Source: Alphaproteobacteria bacterium
GTDB taxonomy: Bacteria > Pseudomonadota > Alphaproteobacteria > Caulobacterales > Aquidulcibacteraceae
Reading direction: 5' to 3'
Assembly (NCBI GenBank): GCA_027488965.1
Contig: JAIYAO010000099.1
Span: 1-33,668 of the forward strand
DNA: 33,668 nucleotides
Shown here: in pieces, positions 4,806-13,850 of the stretch
How the letters are laid out: each line of letters opens with the position of its first letter
How positions within the stretch are numbered: the first letter of the stretch is position 1
The notes under the pieces: model-generated
Databases searched by the model: none
What the model saw: the letters and a program-made list of their open reading frames with translations, nothing else
Told to the model about the DNA's origin: nothing
Translations under genes and position numbers: made by a program

Positions 4806-6488
4806 TCAACCTTCCTTGCGGCGTGAACGGGGGGCGGGGCGCAGCGGCACGACTTCGCCGGCCGTGGCGGGATCGGGCTTCTTCCAGTCGACGATCTCGG
4901 CGTCGGGGAACGCTGCCAGCGCGTCCGCCACGAACGGGTGGCGCTTCAGGTCTTCCAGCGCGGCGGCGCGTTCCTTCGCGCGCCGTTCGGCGAAGCTCTC
5001 CACGCCCGTGGCGGCGTCGGCGCGCACTTCCCAGAGCGCCCCTGTCCAGTCGAGCAGCCGGCGGGCGAGCCGCGCGGGGACCTCCTCCGGCATGCCGGGC
5101 GCCGGCGCAAACACGATCACGCCGGGCGCGAACGACGACAGCCGCACATAGCGTTCCACCGCGATCTGGAGATCGACGTCGCGATGCGCCTCGATGAGGG
5201 CCAGAACGTCGTCGAAGCTGTTGATGGTGGGGGTTTCGGCGCGCGGGCCTTCCGGGGCGCCCGGTGCGCGCGTCTGAAGGCTCGCCACGCCCGGTCCGCC
5301 GCGCAACATGCGCGCGATCTCTTCCGGCGGCGGCAGGGAAGCGGCCGCGCACAGGCGCACCAGCGCCATCTCCGCCGCAGCGATCGGTTCCGGCGCGCGG
5401 ACCGCTTCTTCCAGCGCCTTCAGCAGCATCTGCCAGAGGCGCGAGAGCGCGGCGGGCGACGTGGCGGCGGCGATGGCGCGCAGCCGCTGCGCCCAGTCCT
5501 GGCCGCCGACGATGCGCGCCTCGGGCCCCAGCGCCTGTACGCGCGCGGCCTCGTGCGCCATCTCCAGCAGGTCGCGCAGCACCAGCGCGGGATCGGCGCC
5601 GCTGTCGTACTGGGTCCTGATCTCCGTGAGCGCGGCCTTCGCATCGCCCGCCAGCACCGCATCGAACAGGTCCGCCACGCGCAGGCGATCGGCAAGGCCC
5701 AGCATCTCGCGCACATCGGCGGCGGAGACGGGGGCGGCGCCGCCCTTCTGCACGATGGCCTGGTCGAGCAGCGAAAGGCCGTCGCGCACCGAGCCTTCGG
5801 CGGCGCGCGCCACCAGCGCGAGGCCGTCCGGCTCCACGTTGACGCCCTCCTTCGCGCAGATGCGCGCGAGGTGCGCGGCGAGTTCGTCGGGCGCGATGCG
5901 CTTGAGGTCGAACCGCTGGCAGCGCGACAGCACCGTCACCGGCACCTTGCGGATCTCCGTGGTGGCGAAGATGAACTTCACGTGCGGGGGCGGTTCTTCC
6001 AGCGTCTTCAAGAGGCCGTTGAAGGCCTGGTTCGACAGCATGTGCACTTCGTCGATGATGTAGACCTTGGTGCGCGCCGAGACGGGCGCGTAGCGCACGC
6101 CCTCCTGCAGCTCGCGGATGTCGCCGATGCCCGTGCGGGAGGCCGCGTCCATCTCGAACACGTCGGGGTGGCGGCTTTCCATGATCTCGCGGCAGTGGAT
6201 GCCCAGCGGATCGAGCGTCACCGATGGGCCGTCCACCGTGGCGGACTTGTAGTTGAGGGCCCGCGCCAGCAGGCGCGCGGTGGTGGTTTTGCCGACGCCG
6301 CGCACCCCGGTGAGGATGTAGGCGTGGGGGATGCGGTTCAGCGCGAAGGAATTGGCGATGGTGCGCACCATCGCGTCCTGGCCGATGAGATCCTCGAAGG
6401 TGCGCGGGCGGTACTTCCGCGCGAGCACGAGGTAGCCGCCCGCCGGCTTGGCGTCTGCGAACAGGGCGGGGGCGGAATCATCGCTCAT
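4806..6488 (-). CDS. dnaX: DNA polymerase III subunits gamma/tau
   Basis: Predicted 560-residue clamp-loader ATPase. Features: Walker A GVRGVGKT (61-68), Walker B VYIIDEVHM (142-150), sensor 1 FIFATTEIRKVP, and the SRC motif (188-190), followed by the clamp-loader lid and collar domains and a variable C-terminal tau-like region. The zinc module of the E. coli protein is reduced to a single cysteine (Cys99), as I recall is common in alphaproteobacterial DnaX. I see no A-rich slippery heptamer, so no programmed frameshift is suggested. The ATG at 6488 is preferred over in-frame ATGs up to 39 bases upstream because family members begin close to it. First gene of the dnaX-ybaB-TA-recR unit. Confidence 0.93.
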   Translation of the reverse strand: MSDDSAPALFADAKPAGGYLVLARKYRPRTFEDLIGQDAMVRTIANSFALNRIPHAYILTGVRGVGKTTTARLLARALNYKSATVDGPSVTLDPLGIHCREIMESRHPDVFEMDAASRTGIGDIRELQEGVRYAPVSARTKVYIIDEVHMLSNQAFNGLLKTLEEPPPHVKFIFATTEIRKVPVTVLSRCQRFDLKRIAPDELAAHLARICAKEGVNVEPDGLALVARAAEGSVRDGLSLLDQAIVQKGGAAPVSAADVREMLGLADRLRVADLFDAVLAGDAKAALTEIRTQYDSGADPALVLRDLLEMAHEAARVQALGPEARIVGGQDWAQRLRAIAAATSPAALSRLWQMLLKALEEAVRAPEPIAAAEMALVRLCAAASLPPPEEIARMLRGGPGVASLQTRAPGAPEGPRAETPTINSFDDVLALIEAHRDVDLQIAVERYVRLSSFAPGVIVFAPAPGMPEEVPARLARRLLDWTGALWEVRADAATGVESFAERRAKERAAALEDLKRHPFVADALAAFPDAEIVDWKKPDPATAGEVVPLRPAPRSRRKEG

Positions 6489-6573
6489 GGCTTCCACCAC
6501 CATATAGGGGGCGGCGGGCAGGGCCAAACCGCGCCCCCCGACGGCCTTCGGCCGCCACTTCCCCCGCGTGCGG

Positions 6574-6924
6574 TCAGTAGAAGAACCGCTCCTCGGTCAC
6601 CTTGCCGTTGCGCACGGTGTAGAGCCCGACTTCCTCCATCTGGATACGCTGGCCGCTTTCCTTCTGGGTGACGTCGATCCTGAACACGAGGGCGAACTGG
6701 TCGCCGTTCACGAACGGCCCCTGGACCTCGTAGGCGTGGACCTCGTGCGCGCCGAACCACCAGACGCTCTTGCCGTGCACGGCCTCGCGCCCCTCGAGGC
6801 GGGCCATGGGGCCGTCCATGTTCTCGATGCTGACGACATCCTCCGACCACATCGCCTCCGCGGCGGCGTAGTCTTGGCGACGCAGGGCCTCGGTGAAGGT
6901 TTTGGCGGTGTCCGTGATGGCCAT
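6574..6924 (-). CDS. SnoaL/NTF2-like small protein
   Basis: A 116-residue protein with the NTF2-like alpha+beta-barrel pattern: an N-terminal helix pair (TFTEALRRQDYAAAEAMWSE), then VVSIENMDGPMARLEGREAV, then alternating strands ending VGLYTVRNGKVTEERFFY. SnoaL-like and DUF4440-like proteins include isomerases, hydratases and non-enzymatic binders, so no substrate is assigned. The ATG at 6924 is chosen over one at 6951 because a GGAG site lies about nine bases before it. It is preceded on the same strand by a TetR regulator gene 90 bases upstream, which could control it. Confidence 0.75.
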   Translation of the reverse strand: MAITDTAKTFTEALRRQDYAAAEAMWSEDVVSIENMDGPMARLEGREAVHGKSVWWFGAHEVHAYEVQGPFVNGDQFALVFRIDVTQKESGQRIQMEEVGLYTVRNGKVTEERFFY

Positions 6925-7014
6925 GGGCGAGCTCCGGAGTGCTGAGAACAAAAAGGGTACATCATGGGCGGACGCCGGGCAAGCCGGATGCGGCGGACGA
7001 CAGCCGCGCTGCGG

Positions 7015-7641
7015 CTACCGTCCGGCGAACACCAGCCGGACGTAGGTCCGGTAAAGCATGATCTGGCGGGGCAGCAGGGCCGCATCGCCGAACGACCGCG
7101 TCTGGATGATGCCGCCGTCCATGACGGCGCTCAGCATGTCGGCCATCGCGTCGAGATCGACCTCCACCTGCGGCGGGTAGCGCGCCACGATCGCGTCCAG
7201 CCGCGTCCGGAACGTCCGCCGCAGCGTCAGGTGGAATGTGCGCAGCAGGGCGCGCAGGTCGTCGTTCAGCAGCTGCTGCTGATAGGCGTAGGAGGCGACG
7301 ATGCAGCCCGGATGGCCGCCGGGCAGCGCGTCGGCGAGGTCGGCGAGAAGCTTCAGGAAGATGAGGAAGCCGTGCAGCGGATCGTCGTTGAGCGCGTCGG
7401 CCTGCACGAACAGCCCGTCGATCAGCTCGGCCTCGCGCGCGATATAGCGCTCGATCAGCGCCTTCGCGAGATCGTTCTTGTCCCGGAAGTGATAGAAGAA
7501 ACCGCTCTTGGTGATGCCGGCGGCGGCGATCAGCTCCTCGATGGAGGTCGCGGCGAACCCCTTCGCCAGCACCGCGTCCTCGGCGAGGTCGAGGAGGCGC
7601 TGGCGCGTCTGGCCGCCCTTGCTGAGAACTCTCACGGTCAT
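7015..7641 (-). CDS. TetR/AcrR family regulator
   Basis: A 208-residue one-component repressor. The N-terminal helix-turn-helix is clear: RQRLLDLAEDAVLAKGFAAT, then IEELIAAAGITKSGFFYHF, then RDKNDLAKALIERYIAREAE. The C-terminal ligand domain (about 60-208) is typical of TetR_C regulators of fatty-acid-like or aromatic ligands, with no close match that I can name. The ATG at 7641 is preferred to one 27 bases upstream because the helix-turn-helix then starts at the usual distance. It is divergent from the microprotein-TPR-hydrolase genes across 227 bases, with an imperfect dyad at 7662-7680 close to its start. Confidence 0.88.
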   Translation of the reverse strand: MTVRVLSKGGQTRQRLLDLAEDAVLAKGFAATSIEELIAAAGITKSGFFYHFRDKNDLAKALIERYIAREAELIDGLFVQADALNDDPLHGFLIFLKLLADLADALPGGHPGCIVASYAYQQQLLNDDLRALLRTFHLTLRRTFRTRLDAIVARYPPQVEVDLDAMADMLSAVMDGGIIQTRSFGDAALLPRQIMLYRTYVRLVFAGR

Positions 7642-7961: not shown

Positions 7962-9281
7962 ATGTTGCACGACCAGTTCGGACTCCCCGTCTCCACGTCC
8001 TCCGCCGCGGCGCTAGCGCATTTCGAGGATGCGACGCGGGCCATGCGCCTCTATCGCGGCGATCCCGTCGGCGATCTCGACGCCGCGCTCGCCCTCGATC
8101 CGGAGTTCACGCTCGCATGGGCGGTCCGCGCCGGGTTGCTGGCCCAGCAGACCGACCACGCGTTCGCCGACGAGGTGGACCGTTCGCTGCGCGCGGGCGC
8201 CGCGTCCGCGTCGCGCGCCACCGACCGCGAGCAGGCGCACCTGGCGGCGGCCACGGCGTGGGCGCAGGGGCGGTATCACGACAGCATCGCCGATTTCGCG
8301 CGCATCGCGCTCGACCACCCGCGCGATCTGGTCGCCATCCAGAGCGCGCACGTGGGGTGCTTCTTCACCGGCCGTCAGGCCGACCTGCGCGACATTCCTC
8401 TCGCGGCCCTGCGCGCATGGAGCACGGACGATCATGCCCGCCACGCGGTGCTCGGCATGGCCGCGTTCGGCCTCGAGGAGTGCGGGGACTATGCCCGCGC
8501 GCAGGCGATGGGGGAGGACGCCACACGGATCGAGCCGCGCGACGCGTGGGCCGTGCACGCGGTCGCCCACGTCCACGAAATGCGCGGGGATGTTTCCGGC
8601 GGCGCCGCATGGCTGAACGCGTTCGCCGACGCGTGGGCGCCGGACTGCGCGTTCGCCTATCACAACTGGTGGCACCTTGCGCTGCTCGACCTCGACCGCG
8701 GAGACCACGCCGCCGCGCTCGCCGTCTATGACGGGAAGGTCCGCCCCGCCGACAGCGACGTGGTGTTGGAGTGGATCGACGCCTCGGCGCTGCTGTGGCG
8801 GCTACGGCTGGAGGGCGTCGATGTCGGCGACCGCTGGACGCCCCTCGCCGCGCGGTGGGCCCGCGCGGCCGAGGATGGGATCTACGCCTTCAACGATCTC
8901 CACGCGGTGATGGCGTTTCTCGGCGCCGGACGCAGCGACGACGTGCGGCGCACGCTCGCCGCCATGCGCCGGGCCGCCGCCGGTGCGGGCGACAACGCCG
9001 AGATGACGCGCGCGGTGGGTCTGCCGCTCGCGGAGGCGTTCGTGGCGTTCGAGGACGGCCGCTTCGCGGAAGCCGTGGACGTCATCGCCCGCGTGCGCGG
9101 CATCGCGCATCGCTTCGGCGGCTCCCACGCGCAGCGCGACATCCTCACCCTCACGCTGATGCACGCGGCCCTGCGCGGCGGGCTGAAGGGCGCAGCGGAA
9201 GCCGTCGCAGCCGAGCGTGTCGCACTCAAGCCCGAAAGCCCGTGGGCGCGGCGCCTCGCCCAGCGCACCCGCGCCCTTTGA
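7962..9281 (+). CDS. Tetratricopeptide-type helical repeat protein
   Basis: A 439-residue soluble protein made of helical pairs. Repeats are recognisable by patterns such as DAALALDPEFTLAWAVRAGL, the stretch HLAAATAWAQGRYHDSIADF with ALDHPRDLVAI, and AQAMGEDATRIEPRDAWAVH. No signal peptide or membrane segment is seen. The overall arrangement resembles StaR-like tetratricopeptide proteins, whose function is poorly defined. An AAAGGA site precedes the ATG. The alpha/beta hydrolase starts 14 bases after its stop, so the two are probably co-transcribed. Confidence 0.7.
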   Translation: MLHDQFGLPVSTSSAAALAHFEDATRAMRLYRGDPVGDLDAALALDPEFTLAWAVRAGLLAQQTDHAFADEVDRSLRAGAASASRATDREQAHLAAATAWAQGRYHDSIADFARIALDHPRDLVAIQSAHVGCFFTGRQADLRDIPLAALRAWSTDDHARHAVLGMAAFGLEECGDYARAQAMGEDATRIEPRDAWAVHAVAHVHEMRGDVSGGAAWLNAFADAWAPDCAFAYHNWWHLALLDLDRGDHAAALAVYDGKVRPADSDVVLEWIDASALLWRLRLEGVDVGDRWTPLAARWARAAEDGIYAFNDLHAVMAFLGAGRSDDVRRTLAAMRRAAAGAGDNAEMTRAVGLPLAEAFVAFEDGRFAEAVDVIARVRGIAHRFGGSHAQRDILTLTLMHAALRGGLKGAAEAVAAERVALKPESPWARRLAQRTRAL

Positions 9282-9295
9282 ACGGAGGACATCTC

Positions 9296-10177
9296 ATGCC
9301 GACGACGGAAACCGTGACCCTGCCCGATGGCGTCTCCCTGCCCGTCTTCGTGCGCGGCGACGTGCGCGCGTCGACGCCGCTGCTGATCCTGCACGGGTAT
9401 TCGGACTCCCATCTCTCGCTTGCGCCGCTGATCGCCGCGCTGCCGGCCTCCCTGCCGGTGATCGCGCCGACGCAGCGCGGCCACGGCGCGGCGGACAAGC
9501 CGCACGGAGGCTACGCCATCGCAGACCTGGCCGCGGACGCCTTCGCGATCCTCGACGCGCTCGGCGCGCCCCGCGCCACGGCGGTCGGTCACTCGATGGG
9601 CGCGGCCGTCGCCACGCTCATGGCGGCGTCACGGCCCGCGCGTGTGGACCGGCTCGTGCTGATCGGCGCCTTTGCGGACATGGCGTCCAACCCGGACGTG
9701 CGCGGGCTCCATGAGGGGGTCTGCGGGCTGTCCGATCCGGTGGACGCGACCTTCGTGCGCGCCTTTCAGGCCGGCACGCTGTCGACGCCGGTGGCCGACG
9801 CTTTCTTCGAGATGGTCGTCGCGGAGAGCCTGAAGCTTCCGGCGCGGGTGTGGGCGGCGCTGTGCGCCGGCTTCCTGGAGGTGGACCTGCCTGGCGCCAT
9901 GAGGGCGGTGCAGGCGCCGACGCTGGTGGTCTGGGGCGACGAAGACGGCTTCTGCAAGCGCAGCGACCAGGACGCCATTCTCGCCGCGATCCCTGGCGCG
10001 ACGCTGCGCGTGCACGGCGGCGCCAACCATGCGGTGCACTGGGAGCGGCCGGCGGCCGTCGCCGCCGATATCGCCGCGTTTCTCGACGAGGCTGCAGGAA
10101 TGGCTGCAGGCGGGCGAGGTGCAGACAGGACGGCGACCCGTGCGCTACCCGTTGCGGCTGCTTCCTTCCGGACCTGA
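9296..10177 (+). CDS. Alpha/beta hydrolase overlapping the SRP RNA gene
   Basis: A 293-residue alpha/beta-hydrolase-fold enzyme. The oxyanion region is ILHGYSDSHLS, the nucleophile elbow is AVGHSMGAAVAT, the acid loop is VVWGDEDGF, and the histidine is in GANHAVHWERP. The serine-acid-histidine triad is complete, so it should be an active esterase or related hydrolase. Substrate is unknown. The fold ends at about AAFLDEAAGM. The remaining codons run into the region antisense to the ffs RNA, and the TGA at 10175-10177 is read from the antisense of the conserved SRP core. The final 25 or so residues are therefore probably constrained by ffs. It follows the TPR gene by 14 bases, with a GGAGGAC site. 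Confidence 0.88.
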   Translation: MPTTETVTLPDGVSLPVFVRGDVRASTPLLILHGYSDSHLSLAPLIAALPASLPVIAPTQRGHGAADKPHGGYAIADLAADAFAILDALGAPRATAVGHSMGAAVATLMAASRPARVDRLVLIGAFADMASNPDVRGLHEGVCGLSDPVDATFVRAFQAGTLSTPVADAFFEMVVAESLKLPARVWAALCAGFLEVDLPGAMRAVQAPTLVVWGDEDGFCKRSDQDAILAAIPGATLRVHGGANHAVHWERPAAVAADIAAFLDEAAGMAAGGRGADRTATRALPVAAASFRT

Positions 10178-11598: not shown

Positions 11599-12114
11599 AT
11601 GGCCATCCGACGCATCCTCACCGTTCCGGACCCGCTCCTGAAGACGGTCTCCAAGCCCGTGGAGGGCGGCGTGACGGACGCGCACCGCGCGCTCATGGAT
11701 GACATGCTGGAGACCATGTACGACGCCCCGGGCGTGGGCCTCGCCGCGATCCAGATCGGCGTCCCGCTGCGGATCATCGTGATGGACATCGCCCCCAAGG
11801 ATGCGCCGCGCGAGCCCCGCTACTTCGTGAACCCCGAGATCGTGTGGGCCTCCGAGGAGCTGAAGAGCTGGGAGGAGGGCTGCCTTTCGGTGCCCGAAAT
11901 CTACGACGATGTGGAACGCCCGGCCCGGGTGAAGCTGCGCTACCTCGATTACCATGGCGCCGTGGTGGAGGAGGACGCGGAGGGGCTGTTCGCCGTCTGC
12001 ATCCAGCACGAGATGGATCACCTGGAGGGCGTGGTGTTCATCGACCACCTCTCGCGGCTGAAGCGCGACAGCGCCATCCGCAAGGTCCGCAAGGCGCAGC
12101 GGATCGAGGCCTGA
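11599..12114 (+). CDS. def: Peptide deformylase
   Basis: A 171-residue metalloenzyme that removes the formyl group from nascent N-terminal methionine. All three motifs are intact: [10 protein letters not shown] (Gln52), EEGCLSVPE (Cys95) and QHEMDHL (His137, Glu138, His141), giving the Cys-His-His metal site and catalytic glutamate. It is followed on the same strand by the CADD-family gene and fmt. No insertion or truncation is seen. Confidence 0.97.
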
Positions 12115-12208: not shown

Positions 12209-12895
12209 ATGGCCGACGGCTTCGCCACGCTTTCCACCGCCGCCCGCATCGACGGCCACGTCGCCGCCCATGCCATGCTGGCGCACCCGTTCTACCAGGC
12301 GTGGACCGAAGGCAAGCTCTCCAAGGATGTGCTGCGCGCGTACGCCATGCAGTACTTCCACCACGTGGAGGCGTTCCCGCAGGCGGTCTCCGCCACCCAT
12401 GCAAACTGCCCCGACCGCGACGGCCGCCGCCTGCTGGCGGAGAACCTCGCCGAGGAAGAGGGCGTTGAGGCCGGCAAGACCGATCACGCCACCCTGTGGC
12501 TCGATTTCGCCGCCGCCATGGGCGCCGATGAAGCCGCCGTCCGCGCCGTGGCGCTCAACCCCGAAACCACGGCGCTGATCGAGACGTTCCGCCGCCTGTC
12601 GCGCCAGTCCTACGCCGCGGGCCTCGGCGCGCTCTACGCGTACGAAACGCAGCTGCCGGCGGTGGCGACCACGAAGATCGACGGGCTCGACAAGTTCTAC
12701 GGCGTGACGGACGCGTCCGCGATCCGCTTCTTCAAGGTGCACGAGACGGCGGATGTGGAGCACAGCGCGGTGTGCCGCACGCTGCTGGACCGCCTCCCGG
12801 CCGACCAGCGCGCGGAAGCGGAAGCCGCGGGCCTCGAACTCGCCCGCGCGCTCTCCGGCTTCCTCGATGGCATGGGCCGCGAGGCCGGCCTCTGA
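12209..12895 (+). CDS. CADD-family TenA-like oxygenase, probable pABA synthesis
   Basis: A 228-residue heme-oxygenase-fold protein of the TenA/PqqC superfamily, in the CADD (folate-related) branch. The opening LAHPFYQAWTEGKL and the AYAMQYFHHVEAFPQAVSA stretch match. The expected dinuclear metal ligands are visible: acidic residues at 82-84, His93, Glu146 (YAYETQ), and His178, Asp182 and His185 (VHETADVEH). In the chlamydial homologue CT610 a tyrosine (Tyr27) and a lysine (Lys152) are reported to be consumed in making p-aminobenzoate; Tyr29 and Lys156 occupy these positions here. It lies between def and fmt, 94 and 22 bases away. It may supply folate-linked chemistry; whether it does is inference. 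Confidence 0.85.
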   Translation: MADGFATLSTAARIDGHVAAHAMLAHPFYQAWTEGKLSKDVLRAYAMQYFHHVEAFPQAVSATHANCPDRDGRRLLAENLAEEEGVEAGKTDHATLWLDFAAAMGADEAAVRAVALNPETTALIETFRRLSRQSYAAGLGALYAYETQLPAVATTKIDGLDKFYGVTDASAIRFFKVHETADVEHSAVCRTLLDRLPADQRAEAEAAGLELARALSGFLDGMGREAGL

Positions 12896-12917: not shown

Positions 12918-13850
12918 ATGACGATGCGCATCGCGTTCATGGGGTCCCCGGATTTCGCTGTCCCGGCGCTGGCGGAACTGCTGGCGCGGGGGCACGAGGT
13001 GGCATGCGTCTATGCGCAGCCGCCGCGTCCCGCGGGCCGCGGCCAGCAGCTGCGCAAGACGCCGGTGCACGCCTTCGCCGAGGCGCGCGGCATCGAAGTC
13101 CGCACGCCGAAATCGCTGAAGAAGCCGCCGGAGCAGGCCGCGTTCGCCGCGCTGCACGTCGATCTCGCGGTGGTCGTCGCCTACGGCCTCATCTTGCCGA
13201 AGGCCATCCTCGAAGCGCCCAGGCACGGCTGCATCAACCTGCACGGCTCGCTGCTGCCCCGCTGGCGTGGCGCCGCCCCCATCCAGCGCGCGCTGATGGC
13301 GGGCGATGCGGTGACGGGCGTGCAGGCCATGCGCATGGAGGAGGGGCTCGATACCGGCCCCGTGATCCTCTCCGCCGAGACGGAGATCGAGTTCGACGAC
13401 ACCGCCCAGACATTGCACGACCGCCTCGCCGCCCTCGGCGCGCCGCTGCTCGCCGATGCGGTGGCGCTGATCGAGGAGGGCCGCGCCGTGGAGACGCCGC
13501 AGGCGACCGAGGGCGTCACCTATGCGCACAAGATCGATCCCGCGGAGGCGCGCATCGACTGGACGCGGCCCGCCCGCGACATCGACCGCCAGATCCGCGG
13601 TCTCTCCCCCTTTCCCGGCGCGTGGTTCGAGATGGCCAGCCCGCAAGGGCCCGTGCGCATGAAGGCGCTCATGTCGCGCGTGGCGGTGGGCGACGGCGCG
13701 CCGGGCACGCTGCTGGACGATCACCTGCGCGTGGCCTGCGGCGAGGGCGCAGTGCGCCTGATGCGCGTGCAGCGTGAGGGCCGCCAGGCGCTGGACGCCG
13801 AAGACTTCCTGCGCGGCGCGGGCGCGCCGGCGGGGCTCGTGCGCACATGA
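12918..13850 (+). CDS. fmt: Methionyl-tRNA formyltransferase
   Basis: A 310-residue enzyme that formylates initiator Met-tRNA using 10-formyltetrahydrofolate. The N-terminal Rossmann domain starts [14 protein letters not shown]. The catalytic asparagine and histidine lie in [18 protein letters not shown] (Asn107, His109), and the aspartate in GLDTGPV (Asp145). The C-terminal OB-like domain runs from about 205. The second ATG, two codons on, would also be a usual start. The stop overlaps the GNAT gene by four bases. The previous gene is the CADD-family gene. Confidence 0.97.

Follow-up and report, generated by a model that had tools for sequence, protein, structure and literature searches.

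A predicted CADD-family self-sacrificing p-aminobenzoate synthase encoded between def and fmt in an alphaproteobacterial genome

A link between the CADD family and folate was noted as early as 2007 (PMC1971073). Two members serve as the closest points of comparison for this study: CtCADD (CT610) of Chlamydia trachomatis and NePabS (NE1434) of Nitrosomonas europaea. According to PMC11965152, NePabS, a self-sacrificing p-aminobenzoate (pABA) synthase of a free-living bacterium, is biochemically proven; its gene, ne1434, adjoins glyA and complements an Escherichia coli pabABC deletion (Satoh 2014, as cited in PMC11965152), and putative relatives occur in Wolbachia, Rickettsia, Chloroflexi and Sphingomonas. 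A first-pass annotation of the locus described here had regarded such a system outside Chlamydia as notable, a point that this published work had already anticipated; CADD enzymes beyond Chlamydia are known, and what is new here is the genomic context. In a literature search whose scope left most subscription papers outside, we found no work connecting CADD or a pABA synthase with a deformylase and a formyltransferase, and no published title or abstract describing a def-CADD-fmt gene order or an exclusion between CADD and PabB.

The window, that is, the whole stretch of DNA that was analyzed, is 33,668 nucleotides long. It contains a complete open reading frame with an ATG start that encodes a protein of 228 amino acids and lies, as the first-pass annotation had placed it, between genes whose profile scores identify them as def and fmt:

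11599 to 12114, + strand: def, peptide deformylase, the upstream neighbor (PF01327, 182.8 bits; TIGR00079, 161 against a cut-off of 104)
12209 to 12895, + strand: predicted CADD-family self-sacrificing pABA synthase, 228 aa (from TIGR04305, phmmer against the PDB, the structural model and Foldseek)
12918 to 13850, + strand: fmt, methionyl-tRNA formyltransferase, the downstream neighbor (TIGR00460, 269.7 against a cut-off of 201.5)

The gaps are 94 nt between def and the CADD gene and 22 nt between the CADD gene and fmt, with all three genes on one strand. The cofactor of Fmt is 10-formyl-tetrahydrofolate. A promoter and terminator scan gave 0 sites, about equal to the number in shuffled sequences.

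Searched against the NCBIfam profiles, the 228-aa protein scored 259 bits with TIGR04305 (CADD family putative folate metabolism protein), for which the cut-off is 200. Its top sequence relatives in the PDB by phmmer were 9pj4 (E 1.1e-43), which carries the PDB name 4-aminobenzoate synthase, 1rcw (CT610; E 1.1e-40) and 8va9 (E 1.5e-40). An AlphaFold2 model computed from an input of 12 aligned sequences had a mean pLDDT of 94.7 and a predicted heme-oxygenase-like helical fold that is nearest to CtCADD. Ranks 1 to 4 of a Foldseek search with this model were all CtCADD/CT610 (the first with TM 0.89/0.94, rmsd 1.6 and 36% identity), and rank 5, PqqC, followed far behind (E 4e-8).

We then compared the residues on which the chemistry would depend in an alignment of 41 rows, comprising the window protein, 10 of the 11 loci of one set, the divergent locus L014, 27 other loci of the host family, locus L043 and the matching stretch of 9pj4. 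The codons of principal interest are the following:

12293 to 12295, + strand: Tyr29, the predicted consumed tyrosine (pABA ring), in the column of CT610 Tyr27 and NePabS Tyr25 (roles as given in PMC11965152)
12455 to 12457, + strand: Glu83, the predicted first metal ligand, conserved in 41/41 rows
12674 to 12676, + strand: Lys156, the predicted consumed lysine (pABA amino group), in the column of CT610 Lys152 and NePabS Lys159 (roles from the same source)

The six metal ligands, three histidines and three carboxylates, are all present in the window protein. Like Glu83, residues His93, Glu146, His178 and His185 occur in every row, and Asp182 occurs in 40/41. Position 82 is E in 36 rows, D in 3 and G in 2, and position 84 is E in 38, so that Glu83, as the only invariant acid among positions 82 to 84, is likely the metal ligand; the first-pass annotation had named the other five ligands correctly and had left the sixth as "acidic 82-84," which is now narrowed to Glu83. 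Its proposal that Tyr29 and Lys156 correspond to the consumed residues held up as well, since phmmer alignments with CT610 and 9pj4 place them in the columns of the Tyr and Lys whose consumption has been reported, and each is conserved in 40/41 rows. The same frequency was found for Tyr45, Tyr49 and Trp97, in the columns of NePabS Tyr41, Tyr45 and Trp99. For all five of these residues the sole exception comes from genome G053, whose L043 is a paralogue scoring 95 bits. A loss of the acidic ligand was also considered, the stretch from Glu83 to His93 being 3 residues longer than that of CT610, and was rejected: the length differs among relatives, Glu83 is invariant, and residues 85 to 92 form a loop in the predicted model.

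Comparison with NePabS was made through 9pj4, which is one residue off a published NePabS peptide and is hence a close relative of it. The window protein shares with NePabS the consumed Tyr and Lys columns, the counterpart of the essential Tyr41 (Tyr45 here), those of the helper residues Tyr45 and Trp99 (Tyr49 and Trp97 here) and Phe177 (Phe174 here), and differs in having Tyr145 where NePabS has Phe148 (PMC11965152); an additional stretch of about 9 residues after residue 68 of 9pj4 is absent from the window protein. With CtCADD it shares the fold, the six ligands, the columns of the consumed residues and Tyr141 (Tyr145 here), whereas Tyr170 of CtCADD is replaced by Phe174. Unlike the chlamydial case, the window locus has no folate-gene operon, and the host genome is of free-living-type size (3.3 Mb). 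At the level of sequence, the match of the 228-aa reading frame to the CADD/NePabS type was confirmed as real and far beyond chance, and profile, modeled fold and residues likewise confirm it as a predicted self-sacrificing pABA synthase of that type.

Two further positions, Tyr141/Tyr170 in CADD and Phe148/Phe177 in NePabS, are reported to govern metal preference, and the F148Y variant of NePabS to be about equally active with Fe/Fe and Mn/Fe (PMC11965152). The corresponding pair in the window protein is Tyr145/Phe174, which was found in 39/39 CADD genomes of the same class that were checked (28 in the 41-row alignment and 11 in the control set described below). Loci L010 to L013, from records titled Bdellovibrionales, Granulicella, Gemmatimonas and Acidobacteriaceae, have Tyr/Tyr; L014 has Phe/Tyr and 9pj4 has Phe/Phe. 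By analogy with F148Y, Tyr145/Phe174 would represent a natural F148Y-like state and hence possibly a cambialistic enzyme, able to use either Fe/Fe or Mn/Fe. This pair, a naturally occurring counterpart of the variant made in the laboratory, makes the proposed rule of metal selection testable without mutation.

We examined the host genome (3.28 Mb in 200 contigs; completeness 100, contamination 0.79) for the canonical pABA enzymes. Its single protein with the chorismate-binding domain PF00425 adjoins a TrpG-type subunit, scores as TrpE (TIGR00564, 552.8 against 517.7) and falls under every PabB cut-off shown (264.1 against 328.4 for the PabB model TIGR00553); as this lone enzyme is TrpE, the PF00425 search with family scoring found no PabB in the host. 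Of its two class-IV aminotransferases (PF01063), one scores as a branched-chain and the other as a D-amino-acid transaminase; both lie below the PabC cut-offs. Dihydropteroate synthase (DHPS) is present (297.7 against a cut-off of 162.6). The host genome therefore shows the combination that marks CADD members: judged by its genes it is capable of folate synthesis, with DHPS kept, yet no PabB or PabC was found in it. These results answer in favor of the first-pass annotation, which had proposed the search for pabA, pabB and pabC; of the two observations that it had named as speaking against it, an intact pab set and a misalignment of Tyr29 or Lys156, neither was found.

CADD looks like the sole route to pABA in the host, apparently replacing the usual enzymes, and by analogy with the described enzymes the gene product very probably makes pABA at the expense of two amino acids of its own chain. 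To the reading that a single-turnover heme-oxygenase-like dimetal oxygenase is the cell's own pABA route, in place of PabA, PabB and PabC, we assign a probability of roughly 0.87. We infer the reaction itself from CtCADD and NePabS, and the role as sole pABA source is our own proposal. Following the steps and residue roles reported for those two enzymes (PMC11965152 and PMC13108848), the dimetal site formed by Glu83, His93, Glu146, His178, Asp182 and His185 would activate O2, and an oxidizing equivalent would travel to Tyr29 along a radical chain of the aromatic residues Tyr145, Trp97, Tyr45 and Tyr49. The side chain of Tyr29 would be severed from the backbone and oxidized to give the ring and carboxylate of pABA, and Lys156 would donate the amino group. 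Each protein copy would yield at most one pABA and would then be spent, the pABA being taken up by DHPS (FolP). One pABA per protein is costly, and this counts against the reading. Given the 3.3-Mb genome, its folate-making gene content and the finding of no PabB, the genome-wide case suggests that in free-living bacteria pABA synthesis by self-sacrifice serves as a working housekeeping pathway, rather than being a peculiarity of genome-reduced parasites.

CADD scored over its cut-off in 28 of the 60 genomes of the host family. At most one PF00425 protein was counted in 26 of these and at least two in the other 2, in contrast to 5 and 27, respectively, of the genomes without CADD (Fisher p 7e-10, by a test that ignores descent and on genomes many of which are draft assemblies). 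Among the 45 family genomes with a completeness of 90% or more and a contamination of 5% or less, the corresponding counts were 18 and 2 with CADD and 1 and 24 without (p 2e-9, again ignoring descent). The raw family counts had been 25/3 against 5/27, with G014 placed among the genomes that have two such proteins. That placement was rejected and G014 counted as having one, because its additional match proved to be the end of its one trpE, repeated where a contig end overlaps. Within the family, genomes tend to have either CADD or a second chorismate-binding enzyme, the two being nearly exclusive. The five genomes with neither are G012 and four that are 57 to 79% complete (G017, G037, G040 and G044). 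DHPS was over its cut-off in 27 of the 28 CADD-bearing genomes, the exception being G011. Within the genus of the window, G029 has CADD and one PF00425 protein; G028 lacks CADD and encodes two additional PabB-like proteins. We classified eight of the second or third chorismate-binding proteins, drawn from 6 genomes, and only counted those of the other genomes; four exceeded the PabB cut-off of TIGR00553, and four scored best with a PabB model but under the cut-offs. They include standalone frames of 463 to 515 aa, a PabA-PabB fusion (G058, 762 aa) and frames of 622 and 639 aa (G056), a variety that suggests more than one PabB origin.

As a control for descent, we used a single-gene tree of 168 columns, built on the Def proteins of 51 family genomes. 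The CADD label changes 9 times on this tree, and well-supported branches require 6 of the changes. Among independent pairs contrasting in CADD, PF00425 on average differed in the opposite direction in 4.6, showed no difference in 1.4 and never differed the same way; the median sign-test p was 0.0625 because only 6 supported pairs exist. The exclusion thus owes something to shared ancestry in part. Close relatives that differ in their pABA route offer a natural setting in which to ask why one protein is spent per vitamin precursor. In a tree of CADD proteins, 27 of the 28 family copies group together (90/80 support) and the copy of G033 falls with those of family f5 (93/77), groupings beyond which we draw little, as several branches are long. 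Order-wide, CADD was over the cut-off in 30/398 genomes; the two outside the host family belong to family f5 (G063 and G174), and each combines CADD with one PF00425 protein and DHPS. Class-wide it was over the cut-off in 10/385 genomes, that of the window included. The other nine have, counted by profile match only, no PF00425 protein (four genomes) or one (five genomes), and none has two; DHPS was matched in 8 of them and was over the cut-off in 7.

The alternative that fares best, though we judge it improbable, is that the protein makes pABA without being its only source, the host relying mainly on external pABA or on a side reaction of TrpE/TrpG combined with a transaminase-type lyase. TrpG-type subunits are known to serve both pathways. 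D-amino-acid transaminases can have lyase activity (PMC8105722). Two CADD-bearing family genomes, G033 and G056, also encode PabB-like proteins, which counts against CADD as a sole route. In addition, ten genomes that seem to make folate have DHPS, one PF00425 protein and no CADD (G012 in the family; G092, G183, G203, G321 and G342; G069, G259, G314 and G218), indicating that the need for pABA can be filled otherwise, by uptake, a missed gene or another route. Against this, the lone PF00425 protein of the host passes the TrpE cut-off and falls short of the PabB one, and of the 19 family genomes that have a completeness of 90% or more and no more than one PF00425 protein, 18 retain CADD.

A single PF00425 protein was rejected as proof by itself, since it also occurs without CADD in family f2 and in four other genomes. 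The order-wide search gave no CADD match in f2, where 47 of the 93 genomes have one PF00425 protein and 45 have two. DHPS was tested in 19 of those 47; it was present in 5 and none was over the cut-off in 14, which for this reason look like folate auxotrophs that need no pABA. It was found in all 10 of the two-PF00425 f2 genomes tested and in four further genomes, outside f2, that have one PF00425 protein and no CADD (G069, G259, G314 and G218). Folate synthesis has seemingly been lost repeatedly in near-complete genomes of the order, as in G088, G111, G211 and G258 of f2.

Slightly less probable again is that the protein is an ordinary small-molecule dimetal oxygenase, similar to BesC, UndA or PqqC, acting on a free substrate. 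PqqC, BesC, UndA and FlcD have the same fold and, as far as homologues were examined, the same ligands, and the protein matches the models of PqqC (TIGR02111, 45.6 bits) and BesC (NF042919, 40.7 bits) weakly; these scores, however, are far under the respective cut-offs of 240 and 500. As a control for specificity, 33 further homologues were placed on the alignment, 11 over the TIGR04305 cut-off and 22 below it, the latter being those whose loci were fetched from the family and class searches, of which the class search listed many more matches. All 11 homologues over the cut-off keep Tyr29, Tyr45, Tyr49, Trp97 and Lys156. In contrast, none of the 22 below it keeps Tyr29 or Lys156, although 20 have all six ligands; the weakest two homologues, L142 and L143, align poorly. 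Nor would a small-molecule oxygenase explain why CADD and a further chorismate-binding enzyme nearly exclude each other.

Gene order was assessed from about 1.5 kb fetched on each side of the 28 family loci, some of which stop at contig ends. On the same strand, def lies upstream of CADD in 24/28 and fmt downstream in 22/28; one or both adjoin it in 27/28, G033 alone showing neither. At the Def loci of genomes without CADD there (n = 27), def and fmt lie at most 58 nt apart in 11 and at a greater distance in 5; the remaining 11 showed no fmt. That the protein modulates deformylation or formylation, or is a structural partner of Def/Fmt with no pABA role, is very improbable in spite of this shared position, as copies away from def and fmt (G033, L008, L074 and L075) keep the same residues, and def and fmt persist in genomes that lack CADD, side by side in 11/27 loci. 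The first-pass annotation had linked the gene to the use of N-formylmethionine; the conserved order behind that link is real, and the functional coupling is one that we can only infer. As a guess, the dose of CADD may be set by translation needs through its position between def and fmt.

A more far-reaching version of the self-sacrificing pABA synthase reading would hold that in this free-living lineage the whole pABA supply comes from spent proteins, that the def-fmt position ties their dose to translation initiation, formyl-folate demand and growth, that Tyr145/Phe174 marks a third natural metal type working with Fe/Fe or Mn/Fe, and that the route was swapped with PabB several times among close relatives. 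As a whole, we consider this version unlikely.

Elsewhere, CADD adjoins folP, at 1.1 kb in L012 (a Gemmatimonas-titled MAG) and at 0.5 kb in L118. Pfam searches of the neighbors in L074, L075 and L008 allowed no folate gene to be named; the neighbors of copies outside the def-fmt position include sdhA-like, coproporphyrinogen oxidase and other non-folate genes. At locus L078 of G033, CADD (5688 to 6368, - strand) is 32 nt from folD (6400 to 7272, - strand), and a sarcosine oxidase beta gene follows (8170 to 9423, + strand). This copy near soxB is a second, more distant CADD with 58% identity, and G033 also has directly adjacent def and fmt genes and a PabB-like protein; the L078 copy may provide extra pABA for a folate-hungry demethylation pathway.

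The gap between def and fmt is a variable spot, with reading frames of about 400 aa in L088 (G028) and L090 (G012), and with an opposite-strand membrane-protein-like frame, which we take to resemble YihY, in L092 (G032) and L097 (G043). Locus L005, from a record titled Hydrogenophilaceae, resembles the alphaproteobacterial records in its gene order, def-CADD-fmt-truA, with a CADD identity of 75%; its title is possibly wrong. Three genomes of the host family, G056, G043 and G053, each have two DHPS-type matches over the cut-off at separate places. G056 and G043 each have three chorismate-binding proteins, and contig C24 of G056 carries one DHPS-type and one chorismate-binding gene about 156 kb apart.
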